Assembly: GCA_938084745.1 (NCBI GenBank)
Contig: CALKEZ010000012.1
Location: 1 to 64,000, forward strand
From: an uncultured Gammaproteobacteria bacterium
Lineage (GTDB): Bacteria > Pseudomonadota > Gammaproteobacteria > Eutrophobiales > Eutrophobiaceae
Direction: 5' to 3'
DNA length: 64,000 nucleotides
Shown here: in pieces, positions 40,116-57,219 of the stretch
How positions within the stretch are numbered: position 1 is the first letter of the stretch
Layout of the letters: every line of letters begins with the position of its first letter
Position numbers and translations under genes: made by a program
Notes under the pieces: generated by a model
Databases searched by the model: none
The model's input: only the letters and a program-made list of their open reading frames with translations
Told to the model about the DNA's origin: nothing

Positions 40116-41270
40116 ATGCAAGAGAGCACCAGACCCGCTGACGATGTTGGTATAGTCGAGTCAAAGACCGCGCATTTTGACGAATCACTTGCGCTCGCGT
40201 CTGGAAATCAATTGCACGGTTTTGATATTGTCTATGAGACCTATGGTGAATTAAATGCAGATCGTTCTAATGCGATATTGATCTGCCATGCCTTAAGTGG
40301 CAATCATCATGTAGCCGGTTACCATACAGCAGAAGATAAAAAACCGGGCTGGTGGGATAACGCGATCGGGCCAAACAAGGCTATCGATACCAATCGTTTT
40401 TTTGTTGTGTCCCCCAACAACATTGGCGGTTGTAGTGGATCTACAGGACCATTGACCACAAACTCGGAGACCGGCAAGCCGTATGGTCCCGACTTTCCTT
40501 TAGTCACGGTTAAAGACTGGGTTAAAACTCAAGCCATGCTGGCAGATCACCTGGGCATAGATGTGTGGGCAGTCGTGATAGGAGGCAGCCTTGGCGGGAT
40601 GCAATGCCTGGAATGGTCAATCGCGTATCCAAATCGGCTTAAACATACTTTTGTGATAGCCGCAGCACCAAAACTATCAACTCAAAACATTGCTTTTAAT
40701 GAAGTAGCACGACAGGCCATACGATCTGACCAAAACTTTAATGAAGGCCATTACTACGAAAATAATAACAAGCCTGAACTGGGTCTGATGCTGGCTCGAA
40801 TGCTCGGCCATATTACCTATCTATCCGATAATGCGCTTGATGAAAAATTTGGCCGCTCACTTCGCGATGGTAAAATAAAATTTGGTTACGATGCTGAGTT
40901 CCAGATAGAAAGTTACTTGCGATATCAGGGACGATCTTTTGTAGAACGCTTTGATGCAAACAGTTATTTATTGTTAACCAAGGTGCTTGATTATTTTGAC
41001 CCTGCCAGTGAAGCCGAGGGGAGTTTGTCAAAAGCCATGAGTCCTGCCACTGCAGAGTTTCTGGTTATCTCGTTCAGTAGTGACTGGCGATTTTCACCCG
41101 AACGTTCACAAGAAATCGTCAGCGCATTACTTGATGCAAACAAGTGCGTCAGCTATATCGAGATTCAATCGAAACAGGGTCACGATTCTTTTCTAATGCC
41201 TATCCCTCGCTACCATCAGGTCATGCGCACGGCACTCGACCGCATCGCAGAAGGACTGAATATTACATGA
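40116..41270 (+). CDS. metX: Homoserine O-acyltransferase MetX
   Basis: Alpha/beta-hydrolase-fold enzyme that activates homoserine for methionine synthesis with an acetyl or succinyl group. The nucleophile is Ser158 in GGSLGGMQ; the Asp and His of the triad lie in the C-terminal FSSDWRFSP and KQGHDSFL segments. The [14 protein letters not shown] and [12 protein letters not shown] blocks are typical. Length 384. Acyl donor (acetyl- or succinyl-CoA) cannot be read reliably from sequence. The stop overlaps metW by 4 bases, and MetW is known to be an activator or partner of this MetX type. Confidence 0.94.
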
Positions 41271-41869
41271 ACCTGAGAACTGATCAGGCCTTGATTGCCG
41301 AATGGATCAAACCCGGTTCACGCGTACTCGATCTGGGTTGTGGTGATGGTACCTTAATGGCCTACCTGCAAGAGCATAAAAATGTAAATGGTTATGGTCT
41401 TGAAATAGACGAAGAAAATATAGTGCAGTGTATTCATCGCGGCGTTGATGTTATACAAACTGATCTGGATAAAGGTTTGTCCGAATTCAAAAAAGATACG
41501 TTTGATTACGTCATTATGACGCAAACGCTGCAGGCCATATATTATCCTGACAAACTACTCCAGGAAATGACACGCGTTGGCCATGAGGCGATTGTTACTT
41601 TTCCAAACATGGGTCACTGGAGAAATCGTTTACAAATTGCGTTTGCTGGTCATATGCCAAAATCGAAAACGCTGCCTTATGAATGGTACAACACGCCTAA
41701 CATTCATTTATGTACCTTGACTGATTTTGAAGCCTTATGTACTTCAAAGAATATTGAAATACTCGAACGCGCCACCGTTGATCATGAGCATCAATCCAGT
41801 ATCGGGATGAATCTGTTTCCTAATTTACTTGGCGAGATTGCAATTTATCGTTTTCGACAAAACGATTAA
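41267..41869 (+). CDS. metW: Methionine biosynthesis protein MetW
   Basis: Methyltransferase-fold partner of MetX, 200 residues. The SAM-like motif [12 protein letters not shown] follows the short N-terminus. Family blocks are [28 protein letters not shown] and [21 protein letters not shown] chose the ATG at 41267, in the ATGA overlap with metX, over the longer upstream frame that runs inside metX. No methyl transfer reaction is proven for the family. Confidence 0.94.
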
Positions 41870-41960: not shown

Positions 41961-42143
41961 CTACGTTTTGCAGCTTGAAATTCCCAAAAGGAGATATGCC
42001 GGACACCGGCCTACTGCAGAAGTAACAATCGGCACAATCCCAATCGCACCCCACCATGACTGAAAGTAAACTCCGACAACTATAATAGCCGCGCCCAGAA
42101 TTGCTCTTATTATCCTGTCCGCTTTACCAACATTACAGTTCAT
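41961..42143 (-). CDS. Small DUF2892 membrane protein (YgaP TM-domain-like)
   Basis: A 60-residue protein with the DUF2892 pattern: short MNCNVGKADRIIRAILG start, then two hydrophobic segments (about 14-29 and 32-45), and GRCPAYLLLGISSCKT with two Cys near the end. It resembles the membrane domain of the E. coli sulfurtransferase YgaP but has no rhodanese domain. AAGGA lies 7 bases before the ATG. A perfect FNR/ANR-type box upstream suggests oxygen control. Confidence 0.88.
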   Translation of the reverse strand: MNCNVGKADRIIRAILGAAIIVVGVYFQSWWGAIGIVPIVTSAVGRCPAYLLLGISSCKT

Positions 42144-42173
42144 AACTATTTCCTTATTCTGAATCGATTAAAT

Positions 42174-42213
42174 GTTATAGCTATCGGATCAATTTAGTAT
42201 TGATATGAATCAA
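42174..42213 (-). promoter_or_regulatory. FNR/ANR box and -10 element upstream of the DUF2892 gene
   Basis: TTGATATGAATCAA at 42200-42213 fits TTGAT-N4-ATCAA exactly. On the minus strand a TATAAC element (42174-42179) lies about 30 bases downstream of the box centre, close to the spacing of class II FNR-activated promoters, and the ATG is about 63 bases from the box. The reading is activation at low oxygen. Confidence 0.75.
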
Positions 42214-42263: not shown

Positions 42264-43790
42264 TTATCTTAAAAAAATGTGATACGCAAGATTATCCGAT
42301 TCGTCCCAGTAAGGAATGTCGAGTCGGTCGATAAACGCTTGAAAGTCCTTTCGTTCATTTTCTTTCACTTGAAAACCCATCAACACGCGACCATAGGCCG
42401 CGCCATGATTTCGATAATGAAATAGACTGATATTCCAGCGTTCACCCATTTCTGTCAGAAAATGCAGCAGCGCACCGGAACGTTCCGGAAACTCAAATCG
42501 ATAGATAAGCTCATTCTCAGCTTGTGGTGCATGACCACCGACCATGTGGCGAATATGCATTTTGGCAACGACATCATTGCTAAGGTCAACCACGTTGTAC
42601 CCTTTTTCTTTAAGATGATTTAGCAGTTTGTCTTTTTCTTCAACCCCGTGCTTAAGCTGGACGCCGGCAAAAACATGAGCATCGTTATCGTCTGCATAAC
42701 GATAATTAAACTCCGTTATCAGGCGCGGGCCAAGATCATGACACAAGTGCCGAAAACTGCCTGGACGTTCCGGGATAATGATCGAGAGCAATGCTTCTTT
42801 TTGTTCGCCCAGTGCAGTCAATTCGGCGATATGGCGCAGTCGATCAAAATTCACATTAGCGCCACTAAAGATAGCGACCAATTCCTTGTCTTTTATATTC
42901 TCCTTTGCAACATATTGTTTTAAGCCCGCGAGGGCCAAAGCACCTGCTGGCTCCGGAATTGATCGTGTGTCTTCGAAAATATCTTTTACTGCGGCACAAA
43001 TTTCATCAATGCTGACCAACAAAATTTCATCGACCAGTTCTTTGGTGATTCTGAAATTCTCTTCCCCGGCTTGTTTAACTGCTGCACCATCGGCAAAAAT
43101 ACCGATCTTATCCAGTACAACGCGTTCACCGGCAGCAAGAGCATGGTGCATGCACGGCGCTTCATCAGGCTCAACACCGATGATCTTTATATCGGGATAA
43201 TGTGCTTGGGTATATGCTGCTATACCGGCGATCAGTCCGCCACCACCGACCGGTACAAAAATGATATCGGGTGTAGTCGGATGCTGCTCTATCAACTCAA
43301 CGCCCACAGTTGCCTGACCAGCAATAATTAATGGGTGATCATACGGCGGAATATAACTCATGCCCTTTTCACTCGACAGTTTTAGAGCATAATCCTTGGC
43401 GTCATCATAATTATTACCATGCAAGATTACTTCAGCGCCCATGCGCTTGACCGAATTGACTTTGATCTCTGGCGTTGTCTTCGGCATGACAATAACGGCC
43501 TTAATGTTCAGGCCTTGTGTTGCCATCGCCACACCCTGGGCATGGTTTCCTGCTGACGCCGTGAGCACACCGCGTAGACGATCTTCTTCAGACAAGGACG
43601 CGATCATGTTATAGGCGCCACGCAATTTATAGGAAAAAACCGGTTGCTGATCTTCACGCTTTAACCAGATATTATTATTCAGTCGCAAGGATAATAATGG
43701 CGCGTGATCCAGGTCGGTTCGTTTAGCCACGGCATAGATACGTCGACTGGCTTCTTCAATTAGATTATTGTATTCATCAAACATAGCCAT
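42264..43790 (-). CDS. ilvA: Threonine ammonia-lyase, biosynthetic
   Basis: PLP enzyme converting threonine to 2-oxobutanoate for isoleucine synthesis. The PLP Lys55 is in [10 protein letters not shown], the phosphate-binding loop in [10 protein letters not shown], and two ACT-like regulatory domains fill the C-terminal third ([17 protein letters not shown] and [19 protein letters not shown]), as expected of the isoleucine-inhibited form. The longest frame begins with TTG at 43814; ATG 43790 (509 residues) is the more likely start, with ATG 43784 also possible. Divergent from rpiA. Confidence 0.95.
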
Positions 43791-43838
43791 AAGATAACAT
43801 TTACTCGAGCACAAACATATTTTTCGATGGAGCTAACG

Positions 43839-56184: not shown

Positions 56185-57219
56185 TTAAAGGAATCGAAAT
56201 TCGAAGCTGACGGCACCCGCGGTTGGGCCACTGACCTCAAGTACAAAATGCACCGGCACATTGACCGGCATACCTTGATCCAGATCAATACTATCATCAA
56301 GATAATCATCTGGCGTGAACTGCCTGTAACTCATTAAGGCACCTGAAGTATCAAAAAGGGTGAGTTGTACACGCGGGTAGGGTTGACGGACAGCCAACTC
56401 GTTATTCATCGTAGCATTAACCAGTAAGGTGTCTTGATAAGTGGGATGCAACCGTACATCCCGATTAACCAGCTTGATGGCGCGCGCATCCCGTTGCCGA
56501 ATTAATCTGCAATCCAGCTCATTACACAGCTGCTTGGCGTAGGGTTTTAATTGAGGATATTTCATTAAAAGCTGGTCCCGATTAAACCAGGCCAACTGTA
56601 ATGTGAGTACCACAAGCGCAGTTATGCTGGCGCTGGTCCAGAAGAAGGTTGCGATCCAGCGACGCTTCACCGGTGTTTCGGACAAGAGCTCCTCAGCATC
56701 AGGAAAGTCATAATGCGTCTCACCAACTTCCGTTGTTACTGCTTTCTTGCCAAGATTTTCAAGATCTTCTTTTGGCGTATCGGCGCCAATTTCATTGATC
56801 GCCGTATTTAGTTCCAGATCACTATTCGTGGCTTGATTGGTGATAATAACATCTTGTTCCGCTACTGATTCTTCATGCTCATTGGTTTCTACAGCAATTG
56901 CCGGTGAATCTACGTCTATTGCGTTCTCACTATTGCTTTCATCAATCGTGTTTAGCAGGCCATTGTCCGGTATAGGCAGATCAATCTCATCCTCTTCCGG
57001 GATATCGAAGTCTGGCTCTATTACTAACTCGGGTTCGGGTATGGGTTCTGGGTGGATAGTGCTGGGTATTTTATCGTTCGATAATGGCTCATCATAGAGA
57101 TGCTCAAGTGCATTAAACTGAGTATTACAAAAACCGCAACGAACCTGCCCGGATGCCGCAGCAATCTGTTCTGCATAAAGTCGAAACTGTTTTGTGCAAC
57201 CAGGGCAAACTGTAAACAT
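56185..57219 (-). CDS. Zinc-ribbon and DUF3426 membrane protein
   Basis: 344 residues. An MJ0042-type zinc ribbon (CPGCTKQF ... VRCGFCNTQF) starts the protein. A long acidic, low-complexity stretch (about 45-170) follows, then a membrane helix near residues 189-208, then a DUF3426 domain of beta strands with the VNATMNNELAVRQPYPRVQL block. Proteins of this architecture are common next to prmA and have no assigned function. Its stop-start junction with prmA shares one base. Confidence 0.9.
   Translation of the reverse strand: MFTVCPGCTKQFRLYAEQIAAASGQVRCGFCNTQFNALEHLYDEPLSNDKIPSTIHPEPIPEPELVIEPDFDIPEEDEIDLPIPDNGLLNTIDESNSENAIDVDSPAIAVETNEHEESVAEQDVIITNQATNSDLELNTAINEIGADTPKEDLENLGKKAVTTEVGETHYDFPDAEELLSETPVKRRWIATFFWTSASITALVVLTLQLAWFNRDQLLMKYPQLKPYAKQLCNELDCRLIRQRDARAIKLVNRDVRLHPTYQDTLLVNATMNNELAVRQPYPRVQLTLFDTSGALMSYRQFTPDDYLDDSIDLDQGMPVNVPVHFVLEVSGPTAGAVSFEFRFL

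Follow-up and report, generated by a model that had tools for sequence, protein, structure and literature searches.

The window analysed here, a stretch of 64,000 nucleotides from an uncultured gammaproteobacterium, contains a small membrane-protein gene preceded by a perfect FNR/ANR-type palindrome. This locus raises the question of whether the palindrome controls the gene and, if so, which protein reads it and in response to which signal.

The small gene and its promoter region

The gene (41961..42143, minus strand) encodes a 60-residue membrane protein with a profile match to PF11127 (YgaP-like_TM, DUF2892). As the earlier note had proposed, membership of this family is clear, with scores of 73.3 and 75.4 bits against a curated Pfam cut-off of 25.3. 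The 60 residues match PF11127 only, a rhodanese domain is absent, and a PDB sequence search gave no match up to E = 1. In the structure model, which has a mean pLDDT of only 66.9, helices span residues 7–26 and 30–44 (H7-26 and H30-44), and the protein is probably a two-helix membrane hairpin. Fourteen columns are invariant in 17 aligned sequences, among them C47, P48, and Y50 of the conserved CPxY motif. The protein is the sole PF11127 member found in the draft genome (2.2 Mb, 87% complete).

It is the only gene between ilvA and metW. The threonine ammonia-lyase gene ilvA (42264..43814 from its outermost start, minus strand) is the upstream neighbor on the same strand and ends 120 bp before the DUF2892 gene, while metW (41267..41869, plus strand) is the convergent downstream neighbor. 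A terminator-like hairpin was flagged within the DUF2892 frame (42050-42031, minus strand; one found versus 0.3 expected in shuffles). Among the genomes compared, a DUF2892 gene between ilvA and metW is present only in this one. A true metW, 81–89% identical, was found in seven of the 11 congeners searched, and none of these seven matches PF11127 anywhere; therefore, the gene is either extra in this genome or lost elsewhere. In two of the seven (G043 and G039), ilvA (89–90% identical) ends within about 20 nt of metW, compared with 394 bp here, and the absence of a DUF2892 gene at this site therefore leaves no same-site ortholog for footprinting.

The palindrome lies within the 120 bp that separate ilvA from the DUF2892 gene. 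The 14-mer TTGATATGAATCAA, which reads TTGATTCATATCAA on the gene strand, occupies positions 42200-42213, is assigned to neither strand as an operator, and agrees letter for letter with TTGAT-N4-ATCAA, as previously claimed. It is separated from the ATG by 56 bp. Based on the base composition of the window, about 0.11 perfect boxes are expected by chance per 64 kb and about 3.8 per genome. The window contains two, and the second (56275-56288), within a 344-residue ORF, is probably due to chance. A scan of the whole genome, which the earlier note had suggested, revealed 29 perfect boxes, as against four matches to the reversed pattern. Fourteen of the 29 precede a gene, 13 are inside ORFs of more than 200 codons, and two (L049 and L060) are unclassed. 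One box counted among those preceding a gene (L002, C5:83259) has the same 14 letters as the box of the DUF2892 gene, on the opposite strand relative to its gene; it is located 60 bp ahead of a 302-residue ORF that appears cyclase/FHA-like by eye.

Two overlapping hexamers downstream of the box are candidates for the −10 element. The earlier note had placed TATAAC about 30 bases past the box centre. The hexamer is indeed found there (42174..42179, minus strand; 30 bp between centres, 20 bp gap after the box), but it scores 2.8 bits and lies 2 bp closer to the box than the preferred spacing of this genome. TAACAT (42172..42177, minus strand; 32 bp between centres, 22 bp gap) fits better, with 4.7 bits, and is most likely the −10 element; the scores use rounded frequencies for E. 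coli. For the 16 box–gene pairs of the genome, including L002, the −10 score is maximal 22 bp after the box, a spacing that places the box at −41.5. Nine of the 16 pairs exceed 3 bits at this gap, compared with three at a gap of 21 bp and at most four at any other gap. When the site under study was excluded, eight of 15 pairs still exceeded 3 bits at 22 bp; in 2000 shuffles of these 15 pairs, the mean was reached twice and the count never. The gap-22 hexamer of the DUF2892 gene by itself had a p value of 0.02 in shuffles. The promoter of a heavy-metal ATPase gene (L014) shares this build, with TATAAGAT as compared with TATAACAT at the DUF2892 gene.

For both TAACAT and TATAAC, the −35 position shows at most three of six matches at spacers of 15–19 bp, in line with the weak or absent −35 element of class II promoters, and a scan of the minus strand between 41840 and 42320 revealed no consensus sigma-70 promoter. 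With the box centred at −41.5, transcription is predicted to start at a G at 42165 (minus strand), giving a 22-nt leader. AAGGA (42151..42155, minus strand), 7 nt ahead of the ATG, is the likely ribosome-binding site.

It is therefore likely, judging from sequence, that the DUF2892 gene has a class II FNR-activated promoter and is an ordinary member of the low-oxygen regulon. In this mechanism, the intergenic stretch of 120 bp downstream of ilvA would contain the FNR-dependent promoter. At low oxygen, a [4Fe-4S]-loaded FNR dimer would bind the palindrome centred at −41.5 and transcription would begin near 42165. The bound FNR would contact RNA polymerase next to where sigma-70 sits and thereby activate the DUF2892 gene alone, whose promoter would need FNR since it combines a fair −10 element (TAACAT) with the lack of a −35 element. 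The 60-residue CP-x-Y membrane protein would thereby belong to a low-oxygen regulon along with the cbb3 oxidase and further genes that carry a box. The box, the genomic excess of such boxes, the −10 geometry, the regulator genes, the regulon context, and the gene family are observed; binding, activation as its direction, oxygen as the signal, and the identity of the acting FNR-like protein are what we infer from this arrangement.

The same region could be read in two other ways. If the box were a product of chance, transcription of the gene would depend on a constitutive promoter of low strength or on transcripts running on from ilvA. Some 3.8 perfect boxes are indeed expected by chance, 15 of the 29 boxes lie outside a recognised promoter position, and the DUF2892 gene shares the strand of ilvA, 120 bp past its stop. 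Nevertheless, this explanation is very unlikely: a chance box is expected in a given 100 bp with a frequency of only about 0.00017, the distance from the box to a −10 element matches the preferred spacing of the genome as well, and the minus-strand scan described above found no consensus sigma-70 promoter. Alternatively, FNR might repress the gene, as it does at some promoters. A box centre at −41.5 together with a missing −35 element is, however, the activating arrangement of class II sites, and repression thus appears highly improbable.

Crp/Fnr proteins and boxed genes of the genome

The genome encodes four Crp/Fnr proteins above the Pfam cut-off, in addition to one weak match. The protein encoded on contig C33 is an FNR according to NCBIfam (258.5 bits against a cut-off of 228). 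It contains a C-x2-C-x5-C cluster, a fourth cysteine aligned to that of a solved FNR, and an ETVSR helix, i.e., the [4Fe-4S] cysteines and the E..SR helix of a canonical FNR. The earlier note had made its reading depend on the presence of an FNR/ANR homologue, which this protein provides. A second FNR-like protein (C56:4461-5249, L018) scores 226.3 bits, just below the same cut-off of 228; its N-terminal cysteines are kept, and its helix is ETISR. Of the other two, the C8 protein is CRP-like, whereas the C6 protein has no cysteine cluster, carries VHMNR instead of E..SR, and matches only FnrL, weakly (75 versus 300 bits).

In addition to fnr, contig C33 carries ccoN, ccoO, ccoP, and ccoG, all above their cut-offs, and a perfect box lies between a ccoI-like ATPase gene and a small DUF6455-type ORF just ahead of ccoN. 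The contig also carries napA and a NapC/NirT-type gene, both scoring above their cut-offs, as well as napB-like and napF-like genes that fall short of theirs, and another box precedes an ORF that stands before the nap genes on the same strand. Across the genome, the products of boxed genes include two P-type ATPases (the ccoI-like one and a further heavy-metal type), a c-type cytochrome, polyphosphate kinase 1 (PPK1), a PPK2-family protein, an MlaC-like protein, and a glutamate-type dehydrogenase.

Perfect boxes lie 64 bp ahead of the PPK1 gene (L006, C12:73237) and 62 bp ahead of the PPK2-family gene (L003, C5:113873), hinting that polyphosphate metabolism may be under low-oxygen control. No statement on FNR control of a polyphosphate kinase was found in the parts of the literature covered by our search, including the available text of PMC6446978. 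A distance of 2 kb separates two further perfect boxes (L054 and L055, C40:16943 and 19016); in their vicinity are the glutamate-type dehydrogenase gene, an ORF resembling a P-type cation ATPase by eye, and a small ORF whose ATP-synthase match is weak (25 bits, under the cut-off).

DUF2892 genes across the class

Within the order, PF11127 is present in 11 of 48 genomes. Within the family, the closest relative is that of G027 (68% identical), which has a 9/10 box, TTGATATATATCAT, 85 bp before the start codon, followed by TATCAT at a gap of 23 bp. In another family relative, G025, GTGATTAAAATCAC is accompanied by TATAAA near a gap of 21 bp, as judged by eye. The best box matches of L026 (73% identical) and L027 (69%), both closer than G027, are 7/10 and 6/10, respectively, and the congeners that carry the gene elsewhere (L022 and L023) show 7/10 matches. 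A 9/10 box within 200 bp was found for two of 26 scanned relatives (L029 and L046) and was absent from 24, L022 and L023 included, in a scan whose start-codon motif missed L020 and L025, relatives with box-like sites.

A DUF2892 search of the class was positive for 222 of 369 genomes. A total of 130 places in the class (30 loci and 100 stretches) were read, leaving out seven listed places with long frames, several others, and the unlisted ones. Upstream regions were collected for 136 DUF2892 genes, 129 from the class sample and seven from the family, including the gene studied here; L103, in which no start was found, was dropped, and L113 was kept despite having less than 120 bp upstream. These rows are not fully independent, since certain genomes are represented by two places and certain genera by two genomes. 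In the set of 135, the site under study was left out and L022 and L023 were included as negatives; in the set of 133, all three (L019, i.e., the site under study, L022, and L023) were left out. The 299 control genes were drawn from 20 of the surveyed genomes.

A box of at least 9/10 at 20–120 bp precedes 10 of the 135 DUF2892 genes but only one of the 299 control genes (Fisher p = 5e-5), although the control windows may sit somewhat too far upstream because the outermost start codon was used. When one of two congeners was dropped, p was 1.6e-4. The true palindrome gave 13 hits in the 133 regions at 20–250 bp, compared with 0–3 for nineteen scrambled ones. At 8/10, there was no significant excess over the same distance (29 of 133 versus 45 of 299 controls, p = 0.06). 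Since the 9/10 box is in excess but 125 of the 135 surveyed relatives have none within 120 bp, the link between box and DUF2892 gene recurs in a minority. A separate search of the 369 genomes for a box combined with a DUF2892-like start pattern hit six, and after translation only the hit of the present genome proved to be a DUF2892 gene.

A different association was more frequent. A Crp/Fnr gene on the same strand, ending at most 300 bp upstream, accompanies 45 of the 136 DUF2892 genes but none of the 299 controls; examples are L245:3651-4565, L246:4103-5006, and L250:4200-5229. The model used for these neighbors was built from seven proteins, four of which lie beside DUF2892 genes, so a few of the 45 hits were themselves members of the model. 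The helix [RH]E..[ST]R is present in all 45. Full-length proteins were recovered for 14 of the 45, and none of the 14 has the N-terminal cluster of FNR. Instead, the motif CxLTx[SAT]C or something close to it is present in 11 of the 14; of its two cysteines, one is conserved in all 14 proteins and the other in 13. A 9/10 box within 120 bp is found in five of the 45 loci with such a neighbor and in five of the 90 without; in L136, L140, L169, and L219, all with a neighbor, part of the box falls within the terminal portion of the regulator gene.

These pairs bear on which protein acts at the present promoter. The box might be bound by another Crp/Fnr member with the same half-site, the candidate being the C56 protein, in which case the gene would respond to NO or to a thiol/sulfur species instead of oxygen. 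The C56 protein matches the C33 FNR in its cysteines and in its E..SR helix, dedicated Crp/Fnr genes recur beside DUF2892 genes as described above, and there is the NnrR precedent from Bradyrhizobium discussed below. However, the locus studied here has no neighboring Crp/Fnr gene, the C8 protein is CRP-like, the C6 protein lacks the cysteine cluster and E..SR helix, and another box of the genome is located at the cbb3 oxidase genes. We consider control by another Crp/Fnr member unlikely, and the C33 FNR is favoured as the acting protein over the other FNR-like protein. A broader proposal is that DUF2892 genes constitute a recurring Crp/Fnr-controlled module, with its own regulator in about one third of the surveyed loci and handed to global FNR elsewhere, as here; the regulator would sense a thiol, sulfur species, or NO, and the membrane protein would serve the redox response that goes with this signal. 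This proposal is possible but rather doubtful at present.

If the class II FNR promoter proposed here is correct, a small membrane protein that is widespread but functionally uncharacterised gains a named signal in this organism and therefore a concrete condition under which it can be tested. Because the link between DUF2892 and Crp/Fnr proteins seems to recur across the class, the survey suggests that the promoter illustrates, on a small scale, a more general pattern. Indeed, the pairing of Crp/Fnr and DUF2892 genes is a more interesting lead than the promoter itself.

Comparison with known systems

A literature search that covered titles and abstract openings, with supplements outside its scope, found no description of an FNR-box DUF2892 promoter or of a paired Crp/Fnr regulator. 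The nearest, albeit weak, precedent for a Crp/Fnr-controlled DUF2892 gene appears to be the NnrR-dependent operon blr5774-blr5775-bsr5776 of Bradyrhizobium diazoefficiens, in which, according to the available part of the account, the DUF2892 gene is third after an oxidoreductase gene and trxC, and the box TTGATCTTGCTCAA is listed at −459 (PMC6710368). The two systems share a DUF2892 gene and a Crp/Fnr-type regulator with a listed box, whereas here the gene is solitary and its box lies at 56 bp. The Acaryochloris marina gene AM1_0449 resembles the present gene in its low-oxygen neighborhood, as this DUF2892 gene lies beside low-oxygen-induced genes and is likely cotranscribed with petC and psbA1; however, it is cyanobacterial, and the accessible part of the account mentions no FNR box (PMC5295598).

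Other relatives are connected with sulfur. E. coli YgaP, the namesake of the PF11127 membrane domain, is a rhodanese encoded in the ygaVP operon; the portion of the report at hand describes YgaV as a sulfide-responsive SqrR/BigR homologue that controls YgaP, acts on anaerobic and sulfide responses, and has a regulon that rarely overlaps that of FNR (PMC9774250). The PF11127 membrane domain is thus common to both proteins, but YgaP is a rhodanese under YgaV, while the 60-residue protein lacks a rhodanese domain. The DUF2892 protein Dsui_0042 of Azospira suillum PS differs in being induced, about 10-fold, during sulfide oxidation, and its deletion, in the section of the study available, slightly delayed the onset and left the rate unchanged (PMC5358917). 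Within the class, a perfect box in G403 (L248) is followed by a DUF2892 gene, a metallo-beta-lactamase-type gene, a BLH-domain flavoprotein gene, and a sulfate-permease-type gene, which is possibly a low-oxygen sulfide operon. By analogy with this cluster, the Azospira induction, and the YgaP tie, a sulfur role of the DUF2892 protein is only suggested. In the present genome, the gene is alone between ilvA and metW, and nothing among its neighbors concerns sulfur beyond metW as a methionine-pathway gene. Accordingly, of the links drawn by the earlier note, low-oxygen control by FNR/ANR is well supported by sequence and the tie to anaerobic metabolism would follow from FNR control, but the evidence for a sulfur tie comes from relatives only.

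Overall, the locus most closely resembles the class II FNR/ANR promoters of E. coli FNR and Pseudomonas ANR: it has the TTGAT-N4-ATCAA box, a −10 element at 22 bp, no −35 element, and an FNR with the cysteine cluster in the same genome. It differs in its target, a small membrane protein, and in being a promoter known from sequence. Such a small membrane protein is not known to be part of FNR regulons. The locus is very probably a genuine class II FNR-type promoter, with TAACAT in place of TATAAC as its most likely −10 element, and adds one further member to the known FNR regulon.
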